From contig JAUSAB010000028.1 in NCBI GenBank assembly GCA_030653035.1, forward strand, positions 1 to 64,000: DNA of 64,000 nucleotides, given 5' to 3'. Source of the DNA: Desulfocapsaceae bacterium (GTDB lineage: Bacteria > Desulfobacterota > Desulfobulbia > Desulfobulbales > Desulfocapsaceae). The position numbers were made by a program, and so were the translations under genes. The notes under the pieces were generated by a model. It saw only the letters and a list, made by a program, of their open reading frames with translations. It had not been told where the DNA came from and searched no databases. This document shows, piece after piece, positions 1-16,426 of this stretch. Every line of letters starts with the position of its first letter. Positions within the stretch are counted from its first letter, which is position 1.

Positions 1-43
1 CAAAACAACCGTGCCTAACTGCCGTTTTCAGGATCAATACCCA

Positions 44-640
44 TCAACCATTGGCATGTTCAGTGAGATATTTGGCCACACCGGCAGCCGTCGGGGTCAT
101 GGCGTCATCGCCCTTTTTCCAGTTGGCCGGACAAACATCGCCATACTGCTCGGTGAACTGCAAGGCATCAAGGACCCGCAGGGCCTCATCCACGCTTCTG
201 CCCAGCGGCAGGTCATTGACCACCTGACTGCGAATCACACCCGCCTTATCAATAATAAACAGACCGCGCAGGGCAATGCCCATGGGCAGCAAGACCCCAT
301 AGTTCCGAGCAATACTCTTATCAAGATCAGCAACCAGAGGGAACTGGACATTGCCGATACCGCCGTCATTCACCGCCGTATTCTTCCAGGCCAGATGCGT
401 AAAATGAGAGTCAACCGAAACACCCACAACCTGACAGTTCCGTTCCATAAACTGGCCAAGGGCCCTGTTAAAGGCCAGGATTTCGGAAGGACAGACAAAG
501 GTGAAATCAAGGGGATAAAAAAACAGCACAACATACTGACCGCGCAGACCAGAAAGGGTGAACGCCTCATTGAAAGAGTTGTCCGGCATTACGGCAATGG
601 CTTTAAAATCTGGGGCTTCATTGGTTACAAGTGGATCCAT
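44..640 (-). CDS. typical 2-Cys peroxiredoxin (AhpC/TSA family)
   Basis: Thiol peroxidase that reduces H2O2 and organic hydroperoxides in the cytoplasm. The 198-residue protein has the usual length for the Prx1/AhpC group. The peroxidatic Cys50 lies in the FVCPSE motif and the resolving Cys170 in DVCPANW, so the two-cysteine cycle should be intact. The GGIG loop near residue 93 is the feature linked to overoxidation sensitivity. There is no signal peptide. The start is preceded by a purine-rich GGAATAGAAG site. It lies 88 bp downstream of the Fur/PerR-type gene on the same strand, which suggests a peroxide-stress unit in which the regulator controls this enzyme. The reductant, an AhpF- or thioredoxin-type partner, is not in the window. 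Confidence 0.95.
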   Translation of the reverse strand: MDPLVTNEAPDFKAIAVMPDNSFNEAFTLSGLRGQYVVLFFYPLDFTFVCPSEILAFNRALGQFMERNCQVVGVSVDSHFTHLAWKNTAVNDGGIGNVQFPLVADLDKSIARNYGVLLPMGIALRGLFIIDKAGVIRSQVVNDLPLGRSVDEALRVLDALQFTEQYGDVCPANWKKGDDAMTPTAAGVAKYLTEHANG

Positions 641-728
641 TTTCTTCTATTCCTTATTGAATTGTTTGATTTGTCATATTTTAAACAACATTGCAAAAGA
701 GGGTGCCAGCCAGTTATCTTGGCCCTGC

Positions 729-1376
729 TCAACCCTTTATGGCTGTCCGGCCGTCAGCGGTGATGCCGTACTTGCAACGCACCGGACTGTCAACAAAACC
801 TTGTTTCTTGAGATCGGCAATCTTGCCAGTGACCAGCTTGGCCTCAAGACCCGTGGCAGCCGCAATATCCTTGGCCACACAGGGTCCATGAAAATCAGCC
901 ATGGCCTGTAAAACCATTTTCTGCTCATCTGTCAGCATTTTTTTCGCACATCCGCATCCACAGCCCATCGTCGCATCTCCTTTTGGTACTTTGTTTTTTT
1001 TCTGACATCGGGGACACAGCCCAAAAAATTCTAACCTGCGTCCTTTTATAGTATACCCATCCACCACACCATGTGAAGGACAATCTTCTTTCATCCCTTC
1101 TAAAAATACATTCTCTACTCTGTGACATTGCACACAAGTGACGTGATCATGACCAACCACTTCACTATCAAAACGCCTCTGACGCCCACTCACCTCAAGC
1201 TTGGCGATCAACCCGGTCTCCGACAGAAGCTCGAGATTCCGGTAAACCGTAGCCAGACTGATTCGTGGCATTTTTTTCCTGACAACCCGGAACAGCTGAT
1301 CAGCGGTCAGATGCTGTCTGCTTTTCTGCAATTCCTGAAGAATTATTTCGCGCTGGCTTGTTCTACGTACTGACAT
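729..1376 (-). CDS. Fur/PerR-family regulator with extra C-terminal winged-helix-like domain
   Basis: Residues 1-133 are a complete Fur-family repressor. It has a winged helix with TVYRNLELL near 43-51, the GHDHVTCVQC metal/zinc region (Cys81, Cys84) and a second pair Cys121/Cys124 for the structural zinc. Family members usually stop near 140 residues. This one continues to 215 with a Cys cluster at 137-143 (MGCGCGC) and then about 70 residues resembling a small helix-turn-helix (LTDEQKMVLQAMADF onward). A tightly linked peroxiredoxin and the PerR-like sequence suggest peroxide or metal sensing; which signal is sensed cannot be settled by eye. The extension could be a fused neighbour gene or a second DNA- or metal-binding module. 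The start is preceded by AAGGAGG. Confidence 0.85.
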   Translation of the reverse strand: MSVRRTSQREIILQELQKSRQHLTADQLFRVVRKKMPRISLATVYRNLELLSETGLIAKLEVSGRQRRFDSEVVGHDHVTCVQCHRVENVFLEGMKEDCPSHGVVDGYTIKGRRLEFFGLCPRCQKKNKVPKGDATMGCGCGCAKKMLTDEQKMVLQAMADFHGPCVAKDIAAATGLEAKLVTGKIADLKKQGFVDSPVRCKYGITADGRTAIKG

Positions 1377-1460
1377 AATTCCTCCTTAATAGTAATTAAT
1401 ATCAAACCTAACTGATAACTATTACTAAATCAAGCGTTAATTTTTCATTGATAATTTTTC
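1377..1460 (-). promoter_or_regulatory. AT-rich promoter/operator region of the Fur/PerR-type gene
   Basis: The stretch immediately upstream of the regulator is very AT-rich, with overlapping TTAGTAATAG, TTGATATTAA and TTACTATTAA words that form imperfect dyads typical of Fur/PerR boxes. Autoregulation is the natural inference. No exact family consensus box was found. Confidence 0.4.
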
Positions 1461-1627
1461 ATCAGGAAAAAATAAATACACTGCCCTGAATGAGAGCCCA
1501 TAATCTGACCGGATTGAGAAAGAATACCACCAGCCGAAGGTGGTCCTCACGGGAAAACGAGCAGAGCTTTTAGGGGAGGATTCAAAGGGTTCCCGCAAGA
1601 GGGGGCGGGTAGAGAACGAGGGGATGG

Positions 1628-2929
1628 CTAAGCGTAGCGATACCTGAGATCCTGCCGGAGCATGGGCTCCAGGGTGGCATCAAGGAGGGTGCGCTGGCAG
1701 TCCACCCGGCCCATGTGGCCGTCGCGCTGGAAGGCCATGGCCCGGCAGCCGCCAAAGCAGAGGGGCAGGTAGACGCAATCGCGGCACCCAGGTTCATCCT
1801 GCCAGTGGTCGAGGCACCAGGTCTGCTGCCAGCCGTCGGCCATGCCCTGCCGGATGTCGCCGCAGGCGAACTCCGGGTGGCCGATGAGGGTGACGCACTT
1901 GTAGAGGGTGCCATCGTGGTCGACGGTGAAGGCGTCGTCGAGATCGACCATGCAGGGGCTGGGGGAGAGTTTGGGGAAGCTATGGCCCCGGCGCAGGATC
2001 TCCTCGCGCAGGGAAAGCGAAGCGGCATGCACCCAGGGCTCGTCGTTGGAGCAGCAGCAGCCGGTGAATTCGGGGTTGGCAAACTGATCGCTGATCTGCA
2101 TGACCGGATAGAACTGGACGCTGCAGAAATCAGCGGGGGTGAATCCCCGCTCGGCCAGGGCGTCGAGCAGGTCGGGAAAGACCGGGTAATTGTCGGCGGT
2201 GTAGTTGCCACTGAGGGTGATGACGCAGAGCCCCCGGCAATCCAGCAGATTACCGACGATCTGTTCCCAGCTTCCGCCCCCGTCCTTGAAGGGGCGGAAA
2301 CGGTTGTGATTGGCCGCGGTCCCGTCGATGGTGACCTTGACGCTGACCAGGCCGAGGGGAACCAGCTCCTCCACCAGTGCCCTGGTCAGCAGGGAACCGT
2401 TGGTGACCAAGGTAAACTCGAATTTTCCACCCAGGGCCTTGATGGCGGGCTGGAGCCGTTCGATCAGAGAGCGGATGCGCTGGGTATAGAGCAGCGGCTC
2501 GCCGCCGTAGAAGTCGAGGATCAACCGTTTCTTCTTTCCGGCCCGGAAGCGGGCCAGCAGAGAGGCCACCAGTTGGTCGGCAGTGGCGTCACTCATGGCG
2601 GCCGCCCCCTTGAGACTGCCCTCGTAGCAGTAGAGACAGGCGAAGTTGCAGGCCATGCCGAGAATCACCGAGACCCGCAGATTGGGGTTCAGGCGATTGA
2701 GCTCCCGGCGGTAGCCGCCCATCTCCTGCCGCTCGCGGGCCGGGTCGGCCACCACCATGGAGAGTCTGGCCAGGGAGGCGGTCAGCTCGGGGCTGGCGCT
2801 GTTGTCCTGCAGGGTAGCCAGGGCCTCGGCGCTGACAATGGCCAGGGAGCAGGTCCGGGTGGAGAAGAGCAGCCGTCTGTCCGGCTGGCCGGGCAGGGGA
2901 AAAGTTTTGAGATAATGGGAGAGGGGCAT
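1628..2929 (-). CDS. radical SAM/SPASM peptide maturase, geopeptide type
   Basis: A 433-residue radical SAM enzyme. The cluster-binding motif is Cys94-x3-Cys98-x2-Cys101 (CNFACLYCYE), followed by the glycine-rich DFYGGEP segment. The C-terminal third has a SPASM-like set of cysteines (GCRDCVYLPLCFGGC and neighbours) that would hold auxiliary Fe-S clusters. Such enzymes usually modify ribosomally made peptides, and a 43-residue Cys-containing precursor lies 56 bp upstream on the same strand. The overall sequence and the partner fit my memory of the geopeptide radical SAM maturase family first noted in Geobacter. The modification itself is unknown; a thioether or C-C link is inference. The ribosome site at this start is weak, which fits translation from a processed polycistronic message. 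Confidence 0.85.
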   Translation of the reverse strand: MPLSHYLKTFPLPGQPDRRLLFSTRTCSLAIVSAEALATLQDNSASPELTASLARLSMVVADPARERQEMGGYRRELNRLNPNLRVSVILGMACNFACLYCYEGSLKGAAAMSDATADQLVASLLARFRAGKKKRLILDFYGGEPLLYTQRIRSLIERLQPAIKALGGKFEFTLVTNGSLLTRALVEELVPLGLVSVKVTIDGTAANHNRFRPFKDGGGSWEQIVGNLLDCRGLCVITLSGNYTADNYPVFPDLLDALAERGFTPADFCSVQFYPVMQISDQFANPEFTGCCCSNDEPWVHAASLSLREEILRRGHSFPKLSPSPCMVDLDDAFTVDHDGTLYKCVTLIGHPEFACGDIRQGMADGWQQTWCLDHWQDEPGCRDCVYLPLCFGGCRAMAFQRDGHMGRVDCQRTLLDATLEPMLRQDLRYRYA

Positions 2930-2951
2930 GACAGGGTTCAGGGAAGGGCCA

Positions 2952-2971
2952 TGGGGGGCAATGTCCCCCCA
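2952..2971 (-). other. G/C hairpin between precursor and maturase genes
   Basis: Perfect 7-bp inverted repeat TGGGGGG / CCCCCCA with a 6-nt loop, sitting in the gap between the precursor stop and the maturase start. No U-tract follows on the transcribed strand, so it looks more like an RNA-stabilising or attenuating stem-loop than a full terminator. Confidence 0.6.
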
Positions 2972-2985
2972 GAGATAAATAGTGT

Positions 2986-3117
2986 TTAGCTGCGGGCCGG
3001 GTCACCGGACGAGGCCGCGCTTGGTTTGCCGATGCAGCACGCCGCCGTGGCCGCCACCTCTTCAAGGTTCTTGCCGCAATCCAGAACGATCACCATCTCC
3101 GTTTTTTCCACATCCAT
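2986..3117 (-). CDS. geopeptide-like RiPP precursor (43 aa)
   Basis: This small gene was found by reading the gap on the minus strand. It starts with ATG 6 nt after a strong AGGAGG site and encodes 43 residues, beginning MDVEKTEMVIVLDCGKNLEE and ending in a Ser/Ala/Gly-rich tail. Cysteines are at 14, 27 and 28. The leader-like N-terminal half is acidic and hydrophobic; the C-terminal half (AACCIGKPSAASSG) is the likely core. It lies between a TonB receptor and a radical SAM/SPASM enzyme, the expected place for a precursor peptide, and it resembles the geopeptide family as I remember it. No leader-cleavage motif is obvious and no dedicated protease or exporter is adjacent. Confidence 0.85.
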   Translation of the reverse strand: MDVEKTEMVIVLDCGKNLEEVAATAACCIGKPSAASSGDPARS

Positions 3118-3197
3118 ACTATACCTCCTGGGGTTGGGGTTGATCCAAGGACCTTCATGGCCCTCGGAAAAAGGCTGCTCATTCTTTGGCTCCTGGT

Positions 3198-5159
3198 TCA
3201 GAAACTCACCCGCATCCCGGCCAGCAGCCAGCGGCCGGGCATGGGATAGTATGCTGCATCAGCTGTGGCGTTGCCATTCAAGAGGTTGTACGCCTTAGCG
3301 TACAGCTCGCAACTTAGCCACTCAGAGCTATAGACGGTGCGGCCCAGGCTGATATTCCAGATCATATCCGCCGCCTGCCCCGCCACAGTCGGGGGAATCT
3401 TGTCCTGGTCCCACCAGATGTAGTGGCCGGCCAGCTCCCCTTTCCAGCCGATCGTATCACGGTAGCGGAAGATCAGGTTGGCGGCAGTGGAAGAAGATGA
3501 GTCCGCCAGGTCGTCCTCCGGGGTCACCAGGGTCCAGGTGGTGTTGGCGGCCAGGCTCAGGTCATGCCAGGGGGTGGTCTCCAGCCCCGCCTCGATCCCC
3601 TTGCGTTCACTGTTCCCACCGTTGGCCCAGGTTCCGGTATTCGGGTCAACAATCCAGCTATCGGTGACGTGGTGGAGGAAGGCGTCGACCTTGACGGACA
3701 TAAAGGCAAGGGTGCGGTTCTCCACCCCCACCTGGACCGAGGAGACCTCTTCCGCCTTGAGCTCCGGGTTGGGATTGTCCCAGATGCCGCCGCCGGCAAT
3801 ATAGGAGAGGATGGGGTTTTGGAAGCCGCGCGCGGCCGTGGCCCGCAGCAGGGTGTCGGGCCGGACCAGGTAGGTCGCGCCCAGGGAGGGGCTGACCAAG
3901 GAGCCGCTGATGCTGTGCTGGTCGTAGCGGATGCCGGGCGTCAGGGTGAGCTTATCCAGGCTCAGGGTGTCGTTGACAAAGAGGCCCCACACCTCCTCAG
4001 AACCTGGCCGGGACTCGTCCTGGGGTGGGGCCCCCCAATTGGCCTGGGTCCAGGGACCGTAGTCGGTAACGGTATCCATCTTGCTGCGGTTGATCTCACC
4101 GCCGAGAGTCACCTGCTGCCAGGAGTCGTGCCAGGTAAGCAGACCATTGGCCCCCTGGCTGCGCTCATGCCAGTTGGCCATATACAGCAGGGCGCCGGGA
4201 TCACCCTCCGGGCTGGAGGCGAGGATGTCGCGGTTGGCGAGGAAGTTACGCTCATAGTCGCGAACACCAAGATTGAGATGGAGCGCTTCGGTGAACACGG
4301 TATCGTAGTTGGCCGTCACAAAGTGGCTGCGGTCGCGTAGATCCTCGCTGAAAGAGGGGGCACTGTAGTCGAAATCGCCGGTCTTGTAATGGGGATCGAC
4401 CGCCATGCCGGTAAAGGTGAGCAGCCCCTGATGCGGCAGGTCGACGGTGAACTTGCCATAGGCCCGACCCGCGTCGTAGTAGCGGTTATTCAGCAGGCCA
4501 TCGGACTCCTGCTGACCGGCATAGAGGAAGTAGCCGACCCGGTCGACCTTGCCGGCCACATCCGCCTCGTAGGCCCCCACCCCGCGCTCACCGATCTCGC
4601 CGGCCACCGAACCGGTGGGCCTGGCGCCGGGAGTGGGAGACTTGGTGATGATGTTGATCACCCCGCCCTGGGAGGAGCCCCAGACCGCGGAGCCAGGGCC
4701 CTTGATGATCTCGATCCGCTGGATGATGCGCAGGGGGATGTGGGAGAGATCGGCTGCCCCGGACATGGCCGAGTTGAGCCGGACGCCGTCAATCAGCACC
4801 AGCACATGCTCCTCCCTGCTGCCCTGTATAAAGACCCAGGAACTGCCGTTGAAATCGGCCGGGGATCTTCTCACCGAAAACCCGGCCACCCGGTCCAGCA
4901 CCTCGTTGAGGCTCTGGGCGTGAATGGCCGCGATCTCCTCGTCGCTGATGACGGTGACGTTCTCGGCCACCTGGGTAATCGGCTTGGCGGCGCGGGTGGC
5001 CACCGTCACCATCTGGGAGTCGTCGAAGTACATGGCCAATAATGGCTCAGGATCAGCCGCTTGGGCAACCTGGGTAACCGGGGCGCAGCACAACAGGGTG
5101 GCGGCCATGGGGGCCAGAGCACGAAAAAAACAGGGATGTTTGACGGATTCCATAATCAT
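3198..5159 (-). CDS. TonB-dependent outer-membrane receptor
   Basis: Outer-membrane gated channel of 653 residues. A signal peptide ends near the AQAADPEP segment. A TonB-box-like QMVTVATRA is followed by the plug domain (NVTVISDEEIAA, LNEVLDRVAGFSVRR, IEIIKGPGSAVWGSSQGGVINIITK) and then the beta-barrel, which ends in a terminal Phe (GMRVSF) as usual for porin-type barrels. The ATG at 5159 was chosen because AGAAGGA sits correctly upstream; a longer open frame begins further out. The ligand is unknown. It precedes the geopeptide precursor by 80 bp on the same strand, so it may take up or release the peptide or a metal complex, which is inference from context only. Confidence 0.92.
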   Translation of the reverse strand: MIMESVKHPCFFRALAPMAATLLCCAPVTQVAQAADPEPLLAMYFDDSQMVTVATRAAKPITQVAENVTVISDEEIAAIHAQSLNEVLDRVAGFSVRRSPADFNGSSWVFIQGSREEHVLVLIDGVRLNSAMSGAADLSHIPLRIIQRIEIIKGPGSAVWGSSQGGVINIITKSPTPGARPTGSVAGEIGERGVGAYEADVAGKVDRVGYFLYAGQQESDGLLNNRYYDAGRAYGKFTVDLPHQGLLTFTGMAVDPHYKTGDFDYSAPSFSEDLRDRSHFVTANYDTVFTEALHLNLGVRDYERNFLANRDILASSPEGDPGALLYMANWHERSQGANGLLTWHDSWQQVTLGGEINRSKMDTVTDYGPWTQANWGAPPQDESRPGSEEVWGLFVNDTLSLDKLTLTPGIRYDQHSISGSLVSPSLGATYLVRPDTLLRATAARGFQNPILSYIAGGGIWDNPNPELKAEEVSSVQVGVENRTLAFMSVKVDAFLHHVTDSWIVDPNTGTWANGGNSERKGIEAGLETTPWHDLSLAANTTWTLVTPEDDLADSSSSTAANLIFRYRDTIGWKGELAGHYIWWDQDKIPPTVAGQAADMIWNISLGRTVYSSEWLSCELYAKAYNLLNGNATADAAYYPMPGRWLLAGMRVSF

Positions 5160-5612
5160 TGACGTTCCTTCTGGTATGGGTGGATAAAAAGTCAACACTG
5201 CTCACGATAAATGGGCAGCGGATTCACCTTGCAAAACAAGACACTTTCCTATTAGATGAAGGAAGTATGATCAAAAAACGGCAATTGAGCCTGTTGCAAA
5301 GGTATAAGTAGTGGTCGACAGGCTCGCCACGAACGGGAAAAGGTTAATACATCCATTTATCCTAAAACGGCAGTTGGGACTAGTGCTTTTGCAATAACTT
5401 CTTGCAGGGCCAGCTTTTTTCCCTCACCCCGGCCCTCTCCCAAAAGGAGAGGGCCGGCTTTCTCCCTTCTCCCTGAGGGAGAAGGGCTGGGGATGAGGGG
5501 GAGCGGTATTTACATTATGAAGTAACTGCCGTTTTTAGGTTTATGATGCTGTTCACCCTGAGCTTGTCGAAGGGTATTACCGAAGTTTTGCAACAGACTC
5601 AATGACCTCATA
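5160..5612. repeat. gene-free patchwork of dispersed intergenic repeats
   Basis: No gene is visible here. A CCCTCACCCC...GGGGATGAGGG palindrome (about 5422-5503) contains two inner hairpins (GGCCCTCTCC/GGAGAGGGCC and CTCCCTTCTCCCT/AGGGAGAAGG). A GGTCGACAGGCTCGCCACGA word lies near 5314 and a TTCACCCTGAGCTTGTCGAA word near 5551, both familiar from dispersed repeats in many genomes. Outer arms TTGCAACAGGCTCAATTG (reverse complement of about 5283-5300) and TTTGCAACAGACTCAATG (about 5586-5603) form an imperfect inverted repeat around the whole block, like a small non-autonomous element. The start also holds the promoter of the minus-strand receptor gene. Confidence 0.6.
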
Positions 5613-6590
5613 ATGCACATGTCGCGCCCTCTGATAAGACACGGGAAGACCACGCCCGCGCTCATGATTCTCTTCCTGCCGTTGCTGACCCTGCTGCTGA
5701 CGACAACGGCCTGGGGGGAGTGCATCCTGCTCCAGTCTTCGGCGCTCAAGCCCTATGAGGAGGCCCGGCAGGGCTTTGAACAGGCGTGGACGGCCAAGCA
5801 ACCACTTGCAGGGCCAAAAAGCATCACTATCGGCACCTTAACACACCTCCTGCTCTCGGAACAACCCGAGGAAAGCATGAATTCGCTAAAAAAACAACTG
5901 CAAAATGCGCGACTGGTGGTGGTGATCGGCGATCCGGCCCTGAATTTCGTCCGCGATCTCCAACAAACGCCCGTCCTCTATCTCCTGGCCCCCTCGGCCG
6001 AAAAGCTGCCCGCCAACTTTACCGGCATCGACATCCGCATCCTCCCGTCCCGGCAACTGGAGGCGATGAGCCGACTCATGCCCAAGGTTCACCGCATCGG
6101 CGCTCTCTACAATCCAGCCCAGAGCGGCCACTGGGTCCAGGAGGCGCTCACGAATCAGGTGAGTTCGATGGAGACCCTGCTGTTCAAGAAGGTTGCCACC
6201 CCTTCTCTTGTGCCCGAGGCCCTGAAAAACCTGGGCAACAACACTATTGACGCCTACTGGCTGCTGCCCGACGAGCTGGTTACCAACCCGCAGGCCATGG
6301 AACAACTGCGGGAGTTCTCCATTGCCAACCACATCCCGATTGTCAGCTTTTCGGACAAGTACCTCAAGGCCGGGGCAGCGGCGGCCATCACCTTCGACAT
6401 GACGGACATGGGAAAACAGGCAGCGGATATGGCGACACGGATCCTCGCCGGCGAGAAGCCAAGTGAGGTCCCGGTGGAAACGCCGCGTCGGCAGCGGGTG
6501 ATCGTCAACACCACTGTTTTTCGCCGAATGGGGGTAGAGATCAACGAGAAGGCGGTGGATGAAATCTACTCGGGGGAGACGCAACCATGA
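5613..6590 (+). CDS. periplasmic ABC-type substrate-binding-like protein
   Basis: A 325-residue exported protein: a basic N-terminus and hydrophobic segment (LFLPLLTLLLTTTAWG) precede the mature domain. The body resembles the ABC_sub_bind family of two-lobed binding proteins (VVVIGDPALNFV, LYNPAQSGHWV, IPIVSFSDKYLKAGAAAAITFDM). No permease or ATPase follows. Instead its stop overlaps the start of a membrane histidine kinase by 4 nt, so it probably acts as the ligand-sensing partner of that kinase, as such proteins do next to hybrid sensors (inference). The ligand is unknown. Two ATGs lie 6 nt apart at the start, with only a weak ribosome site. Confidence 0.8.
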   Translation: MHMSRPLIRHGKTTPALMILFLPLLTLLLTTTAWGECILLQSSALKPYEEARQGFEQAWTAKQPLAGPKSITIGTLTHLLLSEQPEESMNSLKKQLQNARLVVVIGDPALNFVRDLQQTPVLYLLAPSAEKLPANFTGIDIRILPSRQLEAMSRLMPKVHRIGALYNPAQSGHWVQEALTNQVSSMETLLFKKVATPSLVPEALKNLGNNTIDAYWLLPDELVTNPQAMEQLREFSIANHIPIVSFSDKYLKAGAAAAITFDMTDMGKQAADMATRILAGEKPSEVPVETPRRQRVIVNTTVFRRMGVEINEKAVDEIYSGETQP

Positions 6591-8269
6591 GCCTTTTCCC
6601 TCGACCCATTGTTCCTAGAATGGGCCTCAATCTCAAGATCCTGACAACCCTGTCCCTGATTCTGCTCGGCTTTGCCGTGACTGCCGGGATAGCCTTCAAT
6701 ATGATCCAGCGCCGGGAACTCAAGAGCTATCTTCTCCAGCAGGGGGACCTTATGGTCACCATGCTCTCCGGCTCCCTCCAGTCGGCATTGTTTTTTGAGG
6801 ATCGCACCGCCATTGACCAGGCGGTGAAAAATTTGCTCTCCCTCAACATCTATCACGATCACAAGGTGGTTACGGTCTACACGACCAAAAACGAGATATT
6901 CTTGCGCCAATTCCCCCACAAAACAGGTAGCCGCCCGAAATTTCCAGATATGGCCCCCCCCATGGCCACCGCCCTCAGCTCCTTCCATAACGATCCGGTG
7001 CAGAAAAAAGTCTGGGAAAACGACGAAATGATCATCTTCACAACACCCATCTCGGTAGTTACCAACCTCCGGAGCAACGAATCCCTTTTCTTCGACACCG
7101 AAAACAAGGGACAAGCCCGCACCGTGATTGGTTACGCCCAGTTAGCTATCGTCAAATGTCAATTCGAACAGGAAGTAAACAAGAGTGTGCTCCATACAAC
7201 ACTGCTGACCATCCTCTTCCTGCTCATCTCTCTGGCCGCCACCTTTATGCTGACCCGCGAGACGATGACACCGCTGCAACGACTGATCGAAACCATCAGG
7301 GCGCGGAACGGCCAGACAGAGCCGGGGCCGGACGAGGTCGGACTTTTAGGCGACACCTTTTCCCAACTGATCGTTGACCTCGAAAAGGCCTTCATGACCA
7401 TCCAGGACCTCAAAGACGGCCTGGAAAACACGGTAATGGAGCGCACCCACGAACTGAGTCAGGCCCTCAACGAACTCCAAGAGACCCACGTGCAACTGAT
7501 CCAATCGGAAAAAATGGTGGCCATCGGCCGACTGGTGGCAGGCGTGGCTCACGAGATCAACAATACCACCAATTTCGTCAGCGGGGCGCTGCCGCCGCTC
7601 CGCAGAAGGCTCAGCGAGCTGGAGGGGCTTCTCCTTGGACCGGATGGAGAACGACCGGACAAAGAACGGTGCGCGGCCATCTTCAAAAATATATCCATGC
7701 TCCTGGACAATGTCAGCGAGGGGGCACGGCGGACCAACAAGATCGTCGGCGACCTCAAAAACTTTTCGCGCCCGGTCGATGAGCTGCCTGGGCCGGTGGA
7801 CATCAACCAATGCCTGCGCACCACCAGCTCGCTGGCCTATCCGGAGTACAAACACCGTCTGGAATTACACATGGAACTGGCCGAAGAGCTGCCCACAGTT
7901 GAAGGTGTCGAGGGCCAGCTCAACCAGGTGTTTATGAATCTGCTCCTCAACGCAGTCCAGGCGCAACCCGAGCAGGGAACCATTCTGATCCGCACCTGGC
8001 AGGCTGCGGACGGGATCCACATCCTGTTCCATGACAACGGCCCCGGCATTCCCGCCGGAGTGATCAACCAGATCTTTGAACCCTTCTTCACCACCAAGGA
8101 GATAGGCAAGGGCACGGGGCTGGGACTTTCAATATCCTACGGCATCATCAAAAAACATCAGGGGACAATCCTGGTTCGGAGCGAACCGGGCCAGGGCGCC
8201 GCTTTTGAAATCACCTTGCCGCTCAAACGGCAGCAAGGGTCACCCATCATCGAAGAGAAGAGACAATGA
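6587..8269 (+). CDS. membrane sensor histidine kinase
   Basis: A 560-residue kinase. One membrane segment at about 16-38 and another at about 201-222 enclose a periplasmic domain of roughly 160 residues. A HAMP-like linker and coiled coil follow. The dimerisation/phosphoacceptor box has His322 in VAGVAHEINN. The ATPase has the N box (NQVFMNLLLNAVQA), G1 (DNGPGIP), F (FEPFFTTK) and G2 (GTGLGLSI). It is translationally coupled on both sides by ATGA overlaps, to the binding protein before and the response regulator after, so the three form one signalling unit. The signal is unknown but is probably delivered by the adjacent binding protein. Confidence 0.93.
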   Translation: MSLFPRPIVPRMGLNLKILTTLSLILLGFAVTAGIAFNMIQRRELKSYLLQQGDLMVTMLSGSLQSALFFEDRTAIDQAVKNLLSLNIYHDHKVVTVYTTKNEIFLRQFPHKTGSRPKFPDMAPPMATALSSFHNDPVQKKVWENDEMIIFTTPISVVTNLRSNESLFFDTENKGQARTVIGYAQLAIVKCQFEQEVNKSVLHTTLLTILFLLISLAATFMLTRETMTPLQRLIETIRARNGQTEPGPDEVGLLGDTFSQLIVDLEKAFMTIQDLKDGLENTVMERTHELSQALNELQETHVQLIQSEKMVAIGRLVAGVAHEINNTTNFVSGALPPLRRRLSELEGLLLGPDGERPDKERCAAIFKNISMLLDNVSEGARRTNKIVGDLKNFSRPVDELPGPVDINQCLRTTSSLAYPEYKHRLELHMELAEELPTVEGVEGQLNQVFMNLLLNAVQAQPEQGTILIRTWQAADGIHILFHDNGPGIPAGVINQIFEPFFTTKEIGKGTGLGLSISYGIIKKHQGTILVRSEPGQGAAFEITLPLKRQQGSPIIEEKRQ

Positions 8270-8997
8270 ACACAATCCTAAGCAAGGTACTGTACGTGGA
8301 CGACGAAGAGATCAACCTGATCAACTTCAGGGAGGCGCTCCGTGACGAGTTTGAGATCTTTACCGCCCTCTCCGGTGAAGCGGCGCTGACGATACTGGCA
8401 CAGGACGCGGACATCGCCCTGGTGGTCAGCGACCAGCGGATGCCGGGGATAAAAGGCGTCGACTTGCTGGCCAGGGCCCTGGAACTGGCGCCCAATGCCG
8501 AGCGCGTCATCATCACCGGCTACACCGATTCCCAGGATATCATCGCCGCCATCAATCAGGGGCATGTCTACCGCTACATTCTCAAACCCTGGACCGAGGA
8601 CGATTTACGAATCACGATTACCCATGCGGTGGAACGACACCATCTCAAAAAACATAATCAAGAGCTGATCGAAGAGCTGAACCGGAAAAATCTGGAGCTG
8701 GAGGACCGGGTCAGGGAACGCACCGCCGAACTGGCCACCACCAACCAGACCTTGATTGCCAAGGTGGACGAACTGGAGCAGGCTAAATACGAACTGAAGA
8801 CCCTGCAAGGACTTCTTTCCATCTGCAGCTACTGTAAAAGAATGCGGGATACCGATAAGACCTGGGTGACAATCGAGCATTACCTGCACCGCCATGCCGA
8901 CGTCCTGCTCACCCATGGCATCTGCCCCGAGTGCTATGCCAAGGTGATGAAGGAGCTGCCTGCCCAGATGGCCCACCTCATGAACGAGGAGCCATGA
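8266..8997 (+). CDS. response regulator with coiled coil and C-terminal four-Cys domain
   Basis: Residues 1-120 are a receiver domain with acidic Asp12/Asp13, phosphoacceptor Asp56 (VVSDQRMPG), the Thr of ITGYT and Lys107 of ILKPW. A long coiled coil follows (about 128-182). The C-terminal 60 residues carry Cys187-x2-Cys190 (CSYCKRMRD) and Cys220-x2-Cys223 (CPEC), a putative zinc-binding module seen at the ends of various bacterial signalling proteins. There is no DNA-binding, cyclase or phosphodiesterase domain, so output is probably by protein contact. It overlaps the kinase gene by 4 nt and should be its cognate partner. About 245 bp without a gene follow; I see nothing definite in them. 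Confidence 0.9.
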   Translation: MNTILSKVLYVDDEEINLINFREALRDEFEIFTALSGEAALTILAQDADIALVVSDQRMPGIKGVDLLARALELAPNAERVIITGYTDSQDIIAAINQGHVYRYILKPWTEDDLRITITHAVERHHLKKHNQELIEELNRKNLELEDRVRERTAELATTNQTLIAKVDELEQAKYELKTLQGLLSICSYCKRMRDTDKTWVTIEHYLHRHADVLLTHGICPECYAKVMKELPAQMAHLMNEEP

Positions 8998-9242
8998 TGC
9001 TGGTGAGGGTCCGTCACAAAATAACGCAACTTTCCTGCCGGAACATCTTGTTGCAAGTGTATTCCATAGAGTAGTATTGCAGGCGTCATTCCGACATGTC
9101 TTAAGACTCCGCTATTTTATAATATCCGGGAGCTTTCTCAAGGCCGGATCCAACCGGAATGATGAAGTATTGACTGCTTTTTCACCTAATCCATTTCCAA
9201 CAAAGCGTGCGCCAGCTCCGCCTGCATAAATCTTTTGCTTAT

Positions 9243-10127
9243 ATGAATCAAATAGTTGAAGTCATCAATCTCAAAAAAGTTTTTGGCGAGAATACAGCAG
9301 TAACAGATGCCTCATTTACCGTCAAAGAGGGCATTTGTTTTGGCCTGCTGGGACCAAATGGCGCCGGCAAGACCACTACCATGGAGATCATGGAAGATAT
9401 TATTGCTCCCACCAGCGGCAAGATCCTGTACCAGGGGCAGCCCCGAGGCGCGTCATTCCGCGAGGAGATTGGGATCCAGTTCCAGCATACCTCTCTGCTC
9501 AATTTTCTCAGCGTCGAAGAAACCCTGTTCTCATTCCACAAGCTGTATCAACAGCCTGAGGATCTTGATTACCTGATCCAGCTCTGTGATCTGAATCCCA
9601 TCTTGAAACAGCGAAACAACCAGCTCTCCGGCGGCCAGCTGCAACGACTGATGCTGGCCCTCGCCCTGATCAACCGGCCGCGCCTGGTCTTTCTCGATGA
9701 ACCTTCAACCGGTCTTGATCCGCAGTCCCGCCGGAATCTGTGGGACATTGTCCGCACCATCAAGGCGGAAGGAAAGACCATCATCATGACCACCCACTCC
9801 ATGGAAGAGGCGGAATACCTCTGCGACGAGGTGGCAATCATGGACATGGGCCGCATCATTGCCTGGGACACCCCGGCCCGCCTGATCCAGACCCATTGCC
9901 AGGGAAGTTCCATCCTCCTGCCGGAATCAGCCTTCAAAATGAGCCTCGACGACCTGCCCTTTACCTGGAAGCACCGCGACAAGACCATTGTCCTGAAGAC
10001 CGCCCAGGTTCAGGAAGGCCTCACCAAACTGCTCAGTCTTGACATTGATCTGACCGAGATGACCATCCATTCACCCAACCTGGAAGATGTTTTTTTATAT
10101 CTGACCGGCAAAGGGCTGCGGGATTGA
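9243..10127 (+). CDS. ABC transporter ATP-binding protein (ABC-2 exporter type)
   Basis: A 294-residue ATPase with Walker A GPNGAGKTTT (near residue 37), Q-loop region (IGIQFQHTSLL), signature LSGGQLQR, Walker B LVFLDEPSTGLD and the H-loop TTHSMEEAE. The C-terminal extension of about 70 residues is normal for DRR/CcmA-type exporters. The ATG at 9243 is chosen because homology starts there; a GTG 36 nt upstream is also open and neither has a clear ribosome site. The permease follows 46 bp downstream. The substrate is unknown: drug, lipid or polysaccharide export are all possible for this family. Confidence 0.93.
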   Translation: MNQIVEVINLKKVFGENTAVTDASFTVKEGICFGLLGPNGAGKTTTMEIMEDIIAPTSGKILYQGQPRGASFREEIGIQFQHTSLLNFLSVEETLFSFHKLYQQPEDLDYLIQLCDLNPILKQRNNQLSGGQLQRLMLALALINRPRLVFLDEPSTGLDPQSRRNLWDIVRTIKAEGKTIIMTTHSMEEAEYLCDEVAIMDMGRIIAWDTPARLIQTHCQGSSILLPESAFKMSLDDLPFTWKHRDKTIVLKTAQVQEGLTKLLSLDIDLTEMTIHSPNLEDVFLYLTGKGLRD

Positions 10128-10173
10128 AATACAGAAAGACAGGTACCTCAAACATTTACACGCTCCTATTATA

Positions 10174-11217
10174 ATGAACTTCAAACGCATGTGGGCCATG
10201 TTTACGGCCAGAAATCACGAATTCTTCCGCGACCGGGCCGCCTTTGGCTGGAACTTTCTCTTTCCCTTCCTGATTATTATCGGCTTCGGGCTCATCTTTG
10301 GGGGCAAGGAGCATCAACAGTTCAAGATTGGCGTCTGGTCTGCCACGGCCCAGGTTGACTTCTCGAAAAGCACGGTGCCCCTTTCATTTCAACAGGGGAA
10401 ATACCTCCAGTTCATCGCCTTCTCCAGTCAGGCAGAAGGCGAACAGAAACTTCAGCACCTCAAGATTGATCTGCTGCTCGACACCCAATCCCCGGAGCAC
10501 CGCTACTGGATCAATGATTCCTCTCCTCAGGGGTATGTCGCCGAACAGATCTTCCTCGCCTCTCTCCAGGACAAGAGTACGCGCCTGGCCGACAAACAGG
10601 TTATCAAAGGGGTGCAAATCCGCTACATCGATTGGCTTTTCCCCGGAATCCTCGGCATGAACATGATGTTTTCCGCCCTCTGGGGGGTCGGGTACGTGGT
10701 GGTGCAATATCGGAAAAACGGGACCCTTAAACGACTCAAGGCCACGCCCCTCACCCCCATGGAATACCTGAGCGCCCAGATGCTCTCCCGCATCTTTCTC
10801 ATCATGTTCACTATTATCGTGGTCTGGATCGGCTCCAACCTGATCTTCCACTTCCAGGTGCACGGCAGCTATGGCGTCCTGGCCCTGATCTTTTTCCTGG
10901 GTGGCCTCAGTCTCAGTTCCATGGGGTTGGTCCTGGCCGCCCGCGGCACCAGCGAAGAATTCACCAGCGGTATCCTCAATTTCATCTCCTGGCCGATGAT
11001 GTTTCTCTCCGGGGTCTGGTTTTCCCTCGAAGGCTCTCCCGCCTGGATTCAGGCCGTGGCCAAGATCTTCCCCCTGACCCACATGTTGACCGGGGCCCGC
11101 AAGATCATGAATGACGGGGCAACACTTGCCGATGTCCAAAGCGAATGCCTGATACTGATCGCCATCACCCTTATCTGCCTGACCATTGCCGCCAGAATCT
11201 TCTCCTGGAACGAATGA
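10174..11217 (+). CDS. ABC-2 type transporter permease
   Basis: A 347-residue membrane protein. One N-terminal transmembrane segment (FGWNFLFPFLIIIGFGLIF) is followed by an extracytoplasmic region of about 120 residues, then a five-helix ABC-2 membrane domain (about 155-340) with the family-typical segment KRLKATPLTPMEYLSAQ. This layout, half an exporter with a large external loop, matches YhfI/DrrB-like permeases. It pairs with the ATPase just upstream. Its TGA overlaps the ATG of tatD (ATGA), so the exporter is co-translated with a metal-dependent DNase/hydrolase family gene, although no functional link is known. Confidence 0.9.
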   Translation: MNFKRMWAMFTARNHEFFRDRAAFGWNFLFPFLIIIGFGLIFGGKEHQQFKIGVWSATAQVDFSKSTVPLSFQQGKYLQFIAFSSQAEGEQKLQHLKIDLLLDTQSPEHRYWINDSSPQGYVAEQIFLASLQDKSTRLADKQVIKGVQIRYIDWLFPGILGMNMMFSALWGVGYVVVQYRKNGTLKRLKATPLTPMEYLSAQMLSRIFLIMFTIIVVWIGSNLIFHFQVHGSYGVLALIFFLGGLSLSSMGLVLAARGTSEEFTSGILNFISWPMMFLSGVWFSLEGSPAWIQAVAKIFPLTHMLTGARKIMNDGATLADVQSECLILIAITLICLTIAARIFSWNE

Positions 11218-12879: not shown

Positions 12880-12909
12880 TTACAGTGAAAAATCTTGGAG
12901 ACACATACG

Positions 12910-13962
12910 ATGCATATGGCAGACGCTCTTTTATCACCGGCGGTGGGAATAACAATGTGGGGTGTAACCGCAGGGACGATTGCCTATTGCTCGACAAAGG
13001 TCAAAAGAGATCTGGATGATCGTAAGATTCCGCTGATGGGGGTGCTGGGCGCCTTTATCTTTGCCGCCCAGATGATCAATTTCACCATTCCCGCCACTGG
13101 TTCCAGCGGCCATATCGGCGGGGGGCTTCTGCTGGCGATCCTGCTCGGACCCTATGCGGCCTTTCTGACGATAGCGTCGGTTCTGGTAATCCAGGCCCTG
13201 TTCTTTGCCGATGGCGGGATCCTGGCCCTTGGCTGCAATATCTTCAACCTGGGGATATTTCCAGCGTTTATCGCCTATCCCCTGATCTACAAGAGAATAA
13301 TCGGCCGCCAGCCGTCACCGACCAAGCTGTCAATCGCCTCGATTATCGGCGTTGTCGTCGCGCTCCAGCTCGGGGCCTTCTCCGTGGTTGTCGAAACAGT
13401 CGCCTCCGGCATCTCGGCTCTGCCGTTCACCACCTTTGTTGTCCTCATGCAGCCGATCCATCTTGCCATTGGGATTGTCGAGGGACTTGTCACCGCAACC
13501 GTGGTCTCTTTCGTCTATACGGCACGGCCGGAGATACTGCAAAGCGCCATGGGAACCAGACCTTTTGGCAACATCTCCGTGCGCAATATCGTCCTGGCCT
13601 TTCTGGCGCTGACCCTCTTGACCGGGGGCGTGCTTTCCTGGTATGCCTCGGAAAATCCAGATGGCCTGGAATGGTCGATTGCCAAAGTCACAGGCGCAGG
13701 CGAAGTGACCGGGACTGAACAACCGCTGCATCATGTCCTGGCTGCCATTCAGGGAAAAACCGCTTTTCTTGCCAATTATGCCTTTCCATCAAAACAGGGC
13801 GAGAAGGCGGTAACTGAAGGCGTCACGGCAGGCAAAGAAGGACAGGATACCAGTGGACGACTTGGCACCAGTGTCTCCGGAGGAGTCGGATCCCTGCTGA
13901 CCCTTACCATGGCCGTCCTCATCGGCTTCTTTCTAAGAAGAGAAACGGCGGGGAAAGGCTGA
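12910..13962 (+). CDS. nikMN: nickel ECF transporter substrate-specific component, NikM-NikN fusion
   Basis: A 350-residue membrane protein. The N-terminus MHMADALLSPAVG carries the conserved His2 that, with the N-terminal amine, binds the metal in CbiM/NikM proteins. A conserved internal His follows in GSSGHIGGGLL. About six membrane helices make up the NikM part. After about residue 225 come an extra transmembrane segment and the PDGLE motif (SENPDGLEWSIAK) typical of NikN, then a further helix near the C-terminus (LLTLTMAVLIGFFL). The ATG at 12910 has CTTGGAGA upstream. The fusion and the paired NikR-like operators point to Ni2+ rather than Co2+. It heads an operon with nikQ and nikO. Confidence 0.9.
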   Translation: MHMADALLSPAVGITMWGVTAGTIAYCSTKVKRDLDDRKIPLMGVLGAFIFAAQMINFTIPATGSSGHIGGGLLLAILLGPYAAFLTIASVLVIQALFFADGGILALGCNIFNLGIFPAFIAYPLIYKRIIGRQPSPTKLSIASIIGVVVALQLGAFSVVVETVASGISALPFTTFVVLMQPIHLAIGIVEGLVTATVVSFVYTARPEILQSAMGTRPFGNISVRNIVLAFLALTLLTGGVLSWYASENPDGLEWSIAKVTGAGEVTGTEQPLHHVLAAIQGKTAFLANYAFPSKQGEKAVTEGVTAGKEGQDTSGRLGTSVSGGVGSLLTLTMAVLIGFFLRRETAGKG

Positions 13963-14063
13963 AGGGACAATCGTCATAGCAAAGAGTTGGCGAGTTTCCG
14001 GCATCTCTCTGTTATCACAGAATCTGCTGACCGCAGGCTGTTCATGGAACACCAAAGACTGAA

Positions 14064-14858
14064 ATGAAATTTCCACATAGTTCTCCCCTCTCTCGCATTT
14101 ATACTCTGTCGGCTGCTATCGCCTGCTACAGCGTCCTTTCCGCTCCAGTTCCCGCTTTTGCGTCCCACCCGCTGATTACGGACGACGCGGGCACCATAGG
14201 CGCAGGCAAATATCAGCTGGAAGTAAACGGCGAGGTTGGACATGAAAAAGAAGAGGGGGTTACCACCCAAACAACGGAAGGAGCCGTAAGCCTCTCCTAT
14301 GGGCTGAGCGAATCCATGGATCTTGTGATCGGCCTTCCCTATCAGCATATCCGGGCCACAGATGACACAACCGTCATATCCGATCATGGCCTCGCCGACA
14401 CCTCCCTTGAAGTGAAGTGGCGGTTGTATGAGCATGATGACTTGAGCCTCGCCATTAAACCGGGACTCACCCTGCCCACCGGGGACGACGAAGCGGGACT
14501 CGGTGTAGGAAAGGCATCTTACAACCTCTTTTCCATTATCTCCAAAGACATGAAACCGTGGGCCTTCCATCTCAACCTCGGCTATCTCAAAAATGAAAAT
14601 ACCCTGGATGAAGAGGAGGACGTCTGGCATGCATCCATCGCTTCCACTTTTGCTGTAACCGACAGCCTCACGGCGGTTACCAACCTCGGCGTTGAAAGCA
14701 ACACCGACGAACTTGCCGGTACCGATCCCGCCTTTTTTCTAGCTGGCCTGATCTACACCCTGTCAGAAGGATTTGATCTTGATTGCGGCATCAAATACGG
14801 ACTGAATAGTGCCGAGACTGACTACACCGTGCTTGCGGGGATCACCTGGAGGCTTTAA
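14064..14858 (+). CDS. outer-membrane beta-barrel protein in the nickel operon
   Basis: A 264-residue secreted protein. The signal peptide ends at about VPAFASHPL. The mature part shows alternating hydrophobic strands and conserved turns (GAGKYQLEVNGE, LSYGLSESMDLVIGLPYQ, KPGLTLPTGDDEAGLG, LAGITWRL), like the Phenol_MetA_deg/transporter barrel family of small outer-membrane channels. It sits between nikMN and nikQ, 6 bp before nikQ, so it probably forms the outer-membrane route for nickel or a nickel chelate (inference). Two His and many Asp/Glu residues are present, but no clear metal motif was recognised. Confidence 0.7.
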   Translation: MKFPHSSPLSRIYTLSAAIACYSVLSAPVPAFASHPLITDDAGTIGAGKYQLEVNGEVGHEKEEGVTTQTTEGAVSLSYGLSESMDLVIGLPYQHIRATDDTTVISDHGLADTSLEVKWRLYEHDDLSLAIKPGLTLPTGDDEAGLGVGKASYNLFSIISKDMKPWAFHLNLGYLKNENTLDEEEDVWHASIASTFAVTDSLTAVTNLGVESNTDELAGTDPAFFLAGLIYTLSEGFDLDCGIKYGLNSAETDYTVLAGITWRL

Positions 14859-14864
14859 CCTAGA

Positions 14865-15677
14865 ATGCGCTCCATTGATGGTGCCGTACTTGATTTAAAA
14901 CGCCTGGACCTCCTGGCAACAGGCGATTCAATCATCCATCGCCTTGATGCGAGGGCCAAGGTTATCACCACCTTATTCTTTATTGTTATGGTGGTCTCTT
15001 ATAAACGCTATGCCTTGGCAGAGTTGACGCCTTTTCTGTTTTTTCCGGTCATCACCCTGGCCCTCAGTAACCTGCCGATCAGCTATATCCTCAAAAAAAT
15101 AGCAGCAATCCTGCCGCTTGCCCTTTTCGTGGGTTTGTTCAATCCCCTGTTTGATCGAGAAACCCAGGTGCTCCTTGGCCCTGTCGCCATCTCCGGCGGT
15201 TGGATTTCTCTTATTTCCATCATGGGCAGAAGCGCCCTGACAGTCGGCAGCGCCTTTATCCTGATCGCCACAACCGGATTCATTGCAGTCTGTCACGCCC
15301 TCAATCGCCTCGGTATGCCCAGGGTCTTTACAATCCAACTCCTTTTCCTCTACCGCTATATCTTTGTGCTCACCGAAGAAGCCACCCGCACCACCCGCGC
15401 CAGGGAACTCAGGGCCTGCGGCAAGAAAGGATTGGGCTTCAGCAGCTTCGGCCCCCTGATCGGTCATCTCCTGATCAGAACCTGGGCCCGGGCCGAGCGA
15501 ATCCATATGGCCATGGTGGTGCGGGGGTTTTCCGGCGAATTTCACTCCCGGCAGATCAACAGATTCGGCCACAAGGAGTATCTCTATGTCATCGGCTGGT
15601 CTCTGGTTTTTATCATTCTCCGCACCGAAGATATAACCAGAATAGTCGGTGCTGCTTTTACAGGGATATTTTCATGA
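14865..15677 (+). CDS. nikQ: ECF transporter transmembrane component (T protein)
   Basis: A 270-residue membrane protein of the CbiQ/NikQ family. It has the N-terminal RLDARAKVI segment, about five to six hydrophobic helices, and the two cytoplasmic coupling motifs (RTTRARELRACG near 180 and RAERIHMAMVVRGFSG near 210) that engage the ATPases. It links the NikMN binding unit to ATP hydrolysis. Its TGA overlaps the nikO ATG (ATGA). The start at 14865 immediately follows the barrel gene stop. Cobalt specificity cannot be excluded from this subunit alone; nickel is inferred from NikMN and the operators. Confidence 0.92.
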   Translation: MRSIDGAVLDLKRLDLLATGDSIIHRLDARAKVITTLFFIVMVVSYKRYALAELTPFLFFPVITLALSNLPISYILKKIAAILPLALFVGLFNPLFDRETQVLLGPVAISGGWISLISIMGRSALTVGSAFILIATTGFIAVCHALNRLGMPRVFTIQLLFLYRYIFVLTEEATRTTRARELRACGKKGLGFSSFGPLIGHLLIRTWARAERIHMAMVVRGFSGEFHSRQINRFGHKEYLYVIGWSLVFIILRTEDITRIVGAAFTGIFS

Positions 15678-16426
15678 GTCACCATATCGTCGAGGTGAAA
15701 AACCTCAAGCACGTCTATGCTGACGGCACCATTGCCCTGAAGGATCTGTCTTTTACCATTCATCACGGGGAATCAGTGGCGATTATCGGTGCCAACGGCG
15801 CAGGGAAATCAACACTCCTGCTGCACCTCAATGGCTATCTGGCCCCGACAGTCGGGGAGGTACGGATCGGCGGTTTCCCGCTGACCCCGGAGACCCTGCC
15901 GGAGATCAGACGAACCGTGGGGATGGTGTTCCAGGATCCCGATGACCAGCTCTTCATGCCCACGGTTTATGAAGATGTCGCCTTCGGTCCTTGCAACCTC
16001 GGACTCCCGGAAGAGGAGGTACGGCAACGGGTAGGTGAGGCCCTGGAAAAAGTAGGGGCCGGGCACCTCGCCCAAAAACCGCCTTATCATCTTTCCGGCG
16101 GCGAGAAGAAACGGGTGGCTATTGCCACGGTGCTGTCAATGTCACCGGATATCCTGGTCATGGATGAACCGACCAACGGTCTCGATCCCTTTTCGCGGCG
16201 GCAGTTGATCGGTTTACTCAAAGACTTTCACCATACCCGGATCTTCACCAGTCATGATCTGGATATGGTCATCGAGCTGTGCGAACGCACGATTGTTCTG
16301 CATCAGGGAGAGGTCAAGGCCGACGGTCCAACGGTTGCAATATTCAACAATGCACAACTGCTGGCGGAATGCCGGCTGGAAAAACCTCTGTCGATGCAGG
16401 GATGCCCGATCTGCGGGAGATCATGA
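15674..16426 (+). CDS. nikO: ECF transporter ATP-binding protein
   Basis: A 250-residue CbiO/NikO ATPase with Walker A GANGAGKST, Q-loop VFQDPDDQLF (the DPDDQ sequence is characteristic of ECF ATPases), signature LSGGEKKRVAIA, Walker B ILVMDEPTNGLDP and H-loop TSHDLD. It drives nickel uptake with NikQ and NikMN. It starts inside the ATGA overlap with nikQ and is the last gene of the operon, being followed by a strong hairpin. The last 15 residues hold two cysteines (GCPICGRS), a small zinc- or metal-binding-like tail. Confidence 0.93.
   Translation: MSHHIVEVKNLKHVYADGTIALKDLSFTIHHGESVAIIGANGAGKSTLLLHLNGYLAPTVGEVRIGGFPLTPETLPEIRRTVGMVFQDPDDQLFMPTVYEDVAFGPCNLGLPEEEVRQRVGEALEKVGAGHLAQKPPYHLSGGEKKRVAIATVLSMSPDILVMDEPTNGLDPFSRRQLIGLLKDFHHTRIFTSHDLDMVIELCERTIVLHQGEVKADGPTVAIFNNAQLLAECRLEKPLSMQGCPICGRS

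Follow-up and report, generated by a model that had tools for sequence, protein, structure and literature searches.

A geopeptide-type maturase and its presumed precursor encoded with a TonB receptor and a periplasmic sensor cassette in a Desulfocapsaceae bacterium and its relatives

TonB proteins in clusters for ribosomally synthesized and post-translationally modified peptides (RiPPs) are already known from Itf and graspetide loci. The passages concerned describe, for the Itf cluster of Bacteroides, the peptide ItfA, the radical S-adenosylmethionine (SAM) enzyme ItfD and the TonB-dependent transporter ItfF (PMC11002830) and, for Bacteroidetes graspetides, a predicted role of TonB-related proteins in product export (PMC8939145). 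The subject of this report is a locus in a 64,000-nucleotide stretch of DNA of a Desulfocapsaceae bacterium, a relative of sulfate reducers (contig JAUSAB010000028.1, positions 1 to 64,000; hereafter the window), in which a short cysteine-containing precursor peptide and its presumed radical SAM/SPASM maturase are encoded beside a TonB receptor and a divergent sensor cassette. It resembles Itf, a radical-SAM-modified RiPP cluster with a TonB-dependent transporter, whereas Itf belongs to another phylum and has a YcaO protein, an ATP-binding cassette (ABC) exporter with a C39 peptidase and a Trp-Ile crosslink, and the passage on it mentions no Cys pair and no binding protein or kinase (PMC11002830). 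The SCIFF ranthipeptides, linked to clostridial quorum sensing in a passage of PMC8326336, are radical-SAM-modified Cys peptides proposed to act in signaling; they differ in being from Gram-positive cells without an outer membrane, whereas the product of the window locus would be routed through a TonB receptor and a periplasmic binding protein.

By profile, the closest solved relatives of the window receptor are CirA and BtuB, from which it is set apart as a maturase-tied subfamily far under the B12 family cut-off. The sensor part may be compared with LuxP-LuxQ, a binding-protein/kinase sensing pair. There, as in the XylFII-LytSN complex (title of entry 5xsj), a periplasmic-type binding protein is encoded beside a sensor kinase, whereas the window pair stands together with a TonB receptor and a RiPP pair. 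In the LuxPQ-like manner, the binding-protein and kinase genes of the window overlap, and the kinase has a predicted periplasmic sensor.

The nearest described relative of the peptide and enzyme is the geopeptide pair of NCBIfam, TIGR04280 (maturase) and TIGR04229 (precursor), models which as seen name only an enzyme and a peptide. No description of the full set was found in the open-licence literature searched (subscription journals and preprints were outside its scope) or in the passages of PMC8939145, PMC11002830, PMC8326336, PMC10352776 and PMC4289311, and the terms "geopeptide" and "TIGR04280" were not met in that open-licence literature. The observations reported here tie a TIGR04280 maturase to a specific receptor and sensor, by which an orphan RiPP becomes a testable ligand-receptor-kinase problem. 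The set of peptide, maturase, receptor and sensor is shared by many related bacteria, which suggests uptake and sensing of the peptide by the cell that makes it. If the peptide is indeed the ligand, a modified-peptide signal or a sensed metallophore would cross the outer membrane by way of TonB.

The original prediction, made from the letters of positions 1628-5159 alone, had described a geopeptide-type pair with an adjacent TonB receptor and missed the divergent cassette of binding protein, histidine kinase and response regulator. The functional unit exceeds 1628-5159, and the sensor cassette at 5613-8997 (plus strand) belongs to the peptide locus. The components are as follows.

1628-2929, minus strand: radical SAM/SPASM peptide maturase (TIGR04280), 433 amino acids (aa), by NCBIfam profile match
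2690-2929, minus strand: N-terminal strand-strand-strand-helix-helix-helix region of the maturase, with RRE-like (leader-binding) topology, by secondary structure of the model, residues 7-71
2986-3117, minus strand: precursor peptide, 43 aa, Cys 14, 27 and 28, by open reading frame (ORF), purifying selection and equivalents in relatives
3034-3039, minus strand: Cys-Cys pair (residues 27-28), presumed core, by precursor alignment
3073-3087, minus strand: leader motif VLDCG at residues 11-15, [VI]L-x-x-G in the family, by precursor alignment
3124-3129, minus strand: AGGAGG ribosome-binding site of the precursor, just 5' of the ATG, read from the sequence
3198-5159, minus strand: TonB-dependent receptor of the peptide-linked subfamily, by Pfam plug and barrel, subfamily profile and adjacency
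5160-5612, no strand: divergent intergenic region between receptor and sensor cassette, by alignment of relatives
5613-6590, plus strand: periplasmic binding protein, PF04392 (ABC_sub_bind), by Pfam; flanked by receptor and kinase
6587-8269, plus strand: sensor histidine kinase (HATPase_c; sCache_4 periplasmic sensor), by Pfam
8266-8997, plus strand: response regulator, receiver with Cys-rich C-terminus, by Pfam

Receptor, peptide and maturase all lie on the minus strand, with 80 bp between receptor and peptide and, as predicted, 56 bp (2930-2985) between peptide and maturase. The genes for binding protein, kinase and response regulator follow one another with successive 4 bp overlaps, divergent from the receptor.

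The predicted 43-codon gene with its AGGAGG site was confirmed by purifying selection and by equivalents in relatives. Six close relatives were compared (the window, L003, L004, L005, L006 and L010; L### denotes a neighborhood compared and G###:C## a genome and contig). The ratio of nonsynonymous to synonymous change (pN/pS, uncorrected proportions over the first 33 codons) was 0.17-0.37 in 14 of 15 pairs, the 15th pair being identical over the region compared, and changes were distributed over the codon positions as 81, 75 and 198, with the third dominant. The precursor gene is under purifying selection and is more than a chance ORF. A comparable precursor, mostly of the form [VI]L-x-x-G ... 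CC, was found at 34 of the 36 maturases above the TIGR04280 cut-off in a survey of 395 genomes of the same phylum. The contigs of the two peptide-less maturases (G200:C251 and G223:C16) are truncated, and each of these genomes has a further contig at whose end a receptor and a CC peptide stand without maturase. Among the over-cut-off loci, neither homologous loci devoid of a conserved small ORF nor an affiliation of the enzyme with a non-peptide radical SAM family was encountered.

In 37 aligned precursors, the CC pair (27-28) was invariant, and L12 and G15 of the leader motif were at least 90% conserved. The three cysteines predicted at 14, 27 and 28 are all present in the window peptide, but co-conservation extended to the CC pair only: Cys14 sits inside the leader motif of the window clade (LDCG), and other relatives have Gln, Glu, Pro, Asn or other residues there. 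All three cysteines as a family feature were therefore rejected. The C-terminal parts are clade-specific (CCxGKPS..., CCKTGPxxLR and CC...P-hydrophobic-R). As background, the peptide-type pattern gave three unrelated matches in 20 loci (about 265 kb) chosen by binding-protein score and none in another set of 12 loci scanned. A precursor profile (A7), partly circular, gave 19 matches, each next to a maturase, in 18 genomes at E ≤ 3.5e-4, and missed two precursors found by eye, that of G027 and the second copy of G098. The precursors counted include some with weak ribosome-binding sites (L024, L025, L035 and the second copy of L054) and one on the other strand (L069).

The maturase reached 488.9 bits against TIGR04280 ("geopeptide radical SAM maturase", cut-off 400), and the next NCBIfam model 151.5 bits; TIGR04280 is of the model type "hypoth_equivalog", that is, of predicted function. 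The window peptide, by contrast, gave no match to the "geopeptide" precursor model TIGR04229 at E ≤ 1, nor was one found in the whole genome to E ≤ 10. This model was matched by 14 of the 37 family precursors at E ≤ 1, and its 30-bit cut-off was passed in none of the ten genomes searched (best 28.0 bits). The comparison with geopeptide models proposed in the original prediction thus came out differently for the two partners, the maturase passing and the precursor failing. A geopeptide-type pair is supported by the over-cut-off enzyme and the conserved short Cys peptide directly upstream of it, and not by the precursor model; because of the latter failure, the whole locus was filed as a variant and not as a standard geopeptide system.

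In 23 aligned sequences, the CxxxCxxC motif of the maturase (residues 94-101) and seven further Cys of the SPASM region were invariant. An AlphaFold2 model built from 15 sequences (pLDDT 85) begins with three strands followed by three helices (residues 7-71), a topology which we take to be of the RiPP-recognition (RRE) domain type. The best fold match of the model was the thioether maturase 5why/5wgg, presumably CteB, with template modeling (TM) scores of 0.64-0.67, 18-20% identity and a root-mean-square deviation of about 9 Å over the full alignment; it was also the best solved structure by sequence profile. CteB, a name used in PMC10352776, is a SPASM enzyme acting on a Cys peptide and differs in that the precursor of the present locus has one CC pair, not six Cys. 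A thioether of the ranthipeptide or sactipeptide type, joining a Cys sulfur to a carbon of another residue, is putative here and is suggested by the fold match to 5why/5wgg.

The linkage of these genes was determined across relatives. In the survey, up to four maturase, five binding-protein and three receptor candidates were scored per genome; 36 maturases exceeded the cut-off in 31 of the 395 genomes, and the neighborhoods of all 36 were examined. The nearest named loci by maturase belong to Desulfobulbaceae and other metagenome bins. A TonB receptor was found within 5 kb of the maturase in 33 cases, the three misses lying at contig ends, so that the neighbor survey suggested by the prediction gave consistent adjacency. 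A binding protein of at least 150 bits was present in 31 of the 33 receptor-bearing loci, the two misses lying at contig ends, where L060 retains a 67-bit fragment, and a kinase lay within 900 bp of it in 24 of these 31. The seven without a kinase beside the binding protein are L056, where a second binding protein adjoins a kinase, L057, L059, L065 and the contig-edge loci L061, L063 and L064. A looser kinase count (at least 200 bits, within 9 kb of the maturase) gave 27 of 33 and may take in unrelated kinases, probably those of L061, L065 and L066.

Twelve further named-contig loci, which remained after removal of four duplicates and the fragment L016, had the receptor and the peptide in all cases and the binding protein in nine; among the misses, L012 is cut off, and the others are L013 and L015. 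L016 holds only a maturase end and was left out of all neighbor counts, and L019, L009, L014 and L017, being the same contigs as G357, G376, G223:C114 and G200:C89, were counted once.

Peptide, maturase, receptor and binding protein remain linked through at least three gene orders, three being a minimum count. In the first, as in the window, receptor, peptide and maturase are followed in one direction and the sensor cassette is divergent. In the second, receptor, binding protein and kinase are divergent from peptide and maturase (L050-L055 and L058, and also L057 and L059 without a recognized kinase), and in the third all genes point in one direction (L073, L074, L079 and L080). Shared ancestry alone is hard put to explain linkage through so many arrangements. 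For scale, the 3.4 Mb genome of the window contains four matches to the receptor plug and a single one to PF04392. Several genomes (G098, G132, G153 and G021) carry the full cassette twice, and each copy includes a receptor and a binding protein of its own. Pairwise distances were correlated between maturase and receptor (r = 0.81) and between maturase and binding protein (r = 0.75), values that none of 2000 permutations reached in either case (38 loci, without correction for the species tree). Redundant loci (L072, L075, L014 and L120), partial ones (L018 and L064), L011 with a fused frame, and all loci in which any of the three proteins was missing or the coverage was under the set limits were dropped from this test.

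A receptor profile (A2) was built from 18 receptors of peptide loci and run over the 395 genomes; it is partly circular, its informative part being the score gap and the small number of orphans. It gave 40 matches of at least 521 bits: 33 stood by over-cut-off maturases, two by contig-cut maturases and two, at contig ends, by a CC peptide; the remaining three had no maturase. Thus 37 were beside a maturase, a piece of one or a CC peptide. Among the matches listed, the remaining scores were at most 290 bits, except for 457 and 335 in genomes with maturase relatives. In one case (G301:C49), the receptor beside the maturase has an in-frame stop. The orphan receptor of L115 has a receptor-sensor cassette and no maturase; divergent from it, 88 bp from its start codon, lies a 33-aa precursor (MREEHDDLLVLEEG..., with C-I-C; L115:11444-11545, plus strand), and 13 of the first 14 residues are those of a precursor at another locus of the same genome. 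This precursor may be matured in trans, and its position by a receptor without maturase argues that the receptor goes with the peptide.

The binding protein of the window is the only PF04392 match found in its own genome. At E ≤ 1e-10, relatives of it were found in 173 of the 395 genomes, so the family is not rare. It scored 74.6 bits against the tryptophan-type model NF041285 (cut-off 390) and is neighbored by a receptor and a kinase, not by a permease; the BPD_transp_2 permeases of the same genome sit on other contigs. The nearest solved relatives of the protein, whose model has a pLDDT of 78, include 3lft, solved with L-Trp. The window kinase reached 27.1 bits for sCache_4 (cut-off 22.1), with CHASE8 below its own cut-off, and kinases of relatives show varied mixes of HisKA, HAMP, PAS or receiver domains. 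In the intergenic region 5160-5612, a CTAATAGnAAA-like block is common to four of seven aligned relatives (L003, L006, L010 and L019) and is possibly a promoter or operator. A search of window positions 1-9500 for sigma-54 sites gave one, at 708 (minus strand) ahead of a peroxiredoxin, and none ahead of receptor, precursor or maturase.

A like plan was observed in a sister branch. Eight loci with maturases below the cut-off (L082-L089) were compared, and five of them (L082 and L084-L087) combine maturase and peptide with SBP_bac_5, a binding-protein family unrelated to PF04392 (by Pfam in L082, L084, L085 and L087, by clustering in L086). SBP_bac_5 proteins typically bind oligopeptides and in some cases nickel or haem. 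In L082 and L085-L087, a peptide of 24-26 aa (MK...[KR]KG...C-x-W) lies between maturase and SBP_bac_5; L084, whose contig ends early, has a CC peptide. A kinase is present in four of the five (with dCache by Pfam in L082, L085 and L087; recognized by profile in L086), a sigma-54-type response regulator in L085-L087, and a receptor in L084-L087, none being found in L082. Matching sigma-54-type promoter sites were seen in L086 near 4699 (minus strand) and in L087 near 14646 (plus strand), where they precede a small conserved protein, without assigned function, that is encoded downstream of the kinase.

On balance, we lean, with modest confidence, towards the matured peptide, or a complex of it, being the ligand of the receptor and being sensed in the periplasm, that is, towards a modified peptide that the cell makes itself and for which it has a specific receptor and sensor. 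The N-terminal domain of the maturase would hold the leader motif [VI]LxxG, and the enzyme would modify the core around the Cys27-Cys28 pair, a thioether link being the likeliest outcome. After trimming, the product would leave through an unlinked exporter and return to the periplasm, alone or with bound cargo, by way of the dedicated TonB receptor. There, the PF04392 protein would capture it and, rather than supply a permease, report to the histidine kinase and response regulator. What the data show are the genes, the selection on the peptide and the linkage; we infer the crosslink, the cleavage, the export, the direction of transport, the identity of the ligand and the signaling output. The earlier inference that the receptor handles the peptide product has thereby gained better circumstantial support. 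More tentatively, the locus may represent a Gram-negative radical-SAM peptide pheromone relay through TonB receptor, binding protein and two-component system, in which peptide-receptor pairs diversify by duplication and two unrelated families have independently come to serve as the binding protein; the duplication part is based on the several full cassettes per genome and on the receptor-peptide pair without its own maturase.

Several observations weigh against a peptide that is taken up and sensed. L057 and L059 have no recognized kinase, L013 and L015 have no binding protein in the roughly 3.2 kb available beyond the receptor, and the receptor-sensor cassettes L113 and L114, of the right receptor subfamily, have no recognizable precursor in the stretches scanned. 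In the sister set, L088 and L089 gave no receptor or binding-protein match, and no clear precursor was seen there. Mirror-tree correlations can arise through shared descent, the L-Trp bound to 3lft implies that the ligand of the sensor need not be a peptide, and the window response regulator has no Pfam output domain beyond the receiver. No conserved exporter or leader peptidase was found, only some flanking ORFs having been checked against Pfam. The direction predicted for TonB proteins in graspetide loci, export, is opposite to the proposed import (PMC8939145, in the passage concerned).

The best-surviving alternative, which we nevertheless consider unlikely, is that of a metallophore: the Cys-Cys peptide would bind a metal (or corrinoid) outside the cell, the receptor would return the complex, and binding protein and kinase would only tune supply. 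TonB receptors mostly carry metal complexes, and the closest solved receptors, CirA (the colicin I receptor) and BtuB, are consistent with this, as are the conserved vicinal Cys pair and the cobalt/nickel-type transporter in the window from 12895 on. However, the scores of the receptor fall far short of the curated thresholds for B12 (TIGR01779, 140.6 versus 599.7 bits) and siderophore receptors (TIGR01783, 116.9 versus 223.5 bits). Iron control through a Fur box was rejected, since the best matches between receptor and cassette (5160-5612) were no better than shuffles, and riboswitch control was also rejected, none being found in the window at the Rfam gathering threshold. In 21 of the 33 loci, both neighbors of the binding protein were receptor, kinase, regulator or maturase, so that no permease adjoins it there; in the other 12, one or both neighbors were unlabeled, missing or at an edge.

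The setting of one sub-cut-off relative, L083:1759-8850, looks like uptake and speaks for a carrier: the maturase relative stands with an MFS transporter, a FecCD permease, Peripla_BP_2 and CobU, and with CobS/CobT-like genes by clustering with L013. This may be a metallophore- or corrinoid-linked peptide, yet L083 gave no match to the receptor profile. The absence of a Fur site and, where the neighbors allowed a judgment, of a permease favors a signal, L083 and the usual role of TonB receptors favor a carrier, and on present evidence a signal is favored over a pure nutrient carrier.

It is improbable that the receptor-sensor cassette serves an unrelated nutrient and that the peptide, co-regulated with this uptake system, has an intracellular role such as that of a redox cofactor or regulator. 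The PF04392 relative solved with L-Trp would suit such a role, as would the absence of a linked exporter. Cassettes of binding protein, kinase and TonB receptor without a maturase were found in five of 20 loci chosen by binding-protein score (L100, L107, L108, L110 and L111); this also counts against uptake of the peptide itself, as the cassette could be a more general module to which the peptide was added. A cassette unique to peptides was rejected on the basis of these five loci, which indicate that the peptide pair was probably added to, or specialized from, a general receptor-sensing module. Against an unrelated nutrient stand the near confinement of the receptor subfamily to peptide loci (37 of 40), the maturase-less receptor of L115, which kept its peptide, and the finding that, besides the locus components, no protein cluster occurs in more than six of 58 clustered loci (greedy ORF calls).

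Some RiPPs enter cells through TonB receptors (microcin J25 and FhuA), but a bacteriocin, that is, a toxin-like peptide entering kin or rivals by this route, is very improbable here, since no conserved cluster in the 58 clustered loci fits an immunity gene or exporter and the producer keeps a receptor and sensor system beside the peptide.

As had been predicted, no exporter adjoins the peptide, receptor or maturase. Behind the response regulator lies an ABC-2 type transporter pair (ATPase and membrane protein) at 9207-11217 (plus strand). It was rejected as a dedicated exporter, none being present in L072 and L075, the two close relatives with enough flank; the flanks of L003-L010 end short of this position and are uninformative on the pair.

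Other genes of the window were also noted. A Fur/PerR-type regulator with a second winged-helix-like part stands beside a peroxiredoxin (729-1376 and 44-640, both minus strand), and counterparts of the same cluster and length come after the maturase in L004-L006. The region 12895-16426 (plus strand) contains cobalt/nickel-type transporter genes, CbiM/PDGLE by Pfam, together with a putative CbiQ-like protein and an ABC ATPase assigned by look only. Elsewhere in the same genome (L091:4067-8906, contig C71), another TonB receptor lies behind a YfiR-like protein and a CHASE8-like sensor protein, both named by sequence look, a receptor-sensor layout parallel to that of the window and without a peptide. 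A group II intron match (RF00029) was found at window positions 41046-41121 (minus strand).

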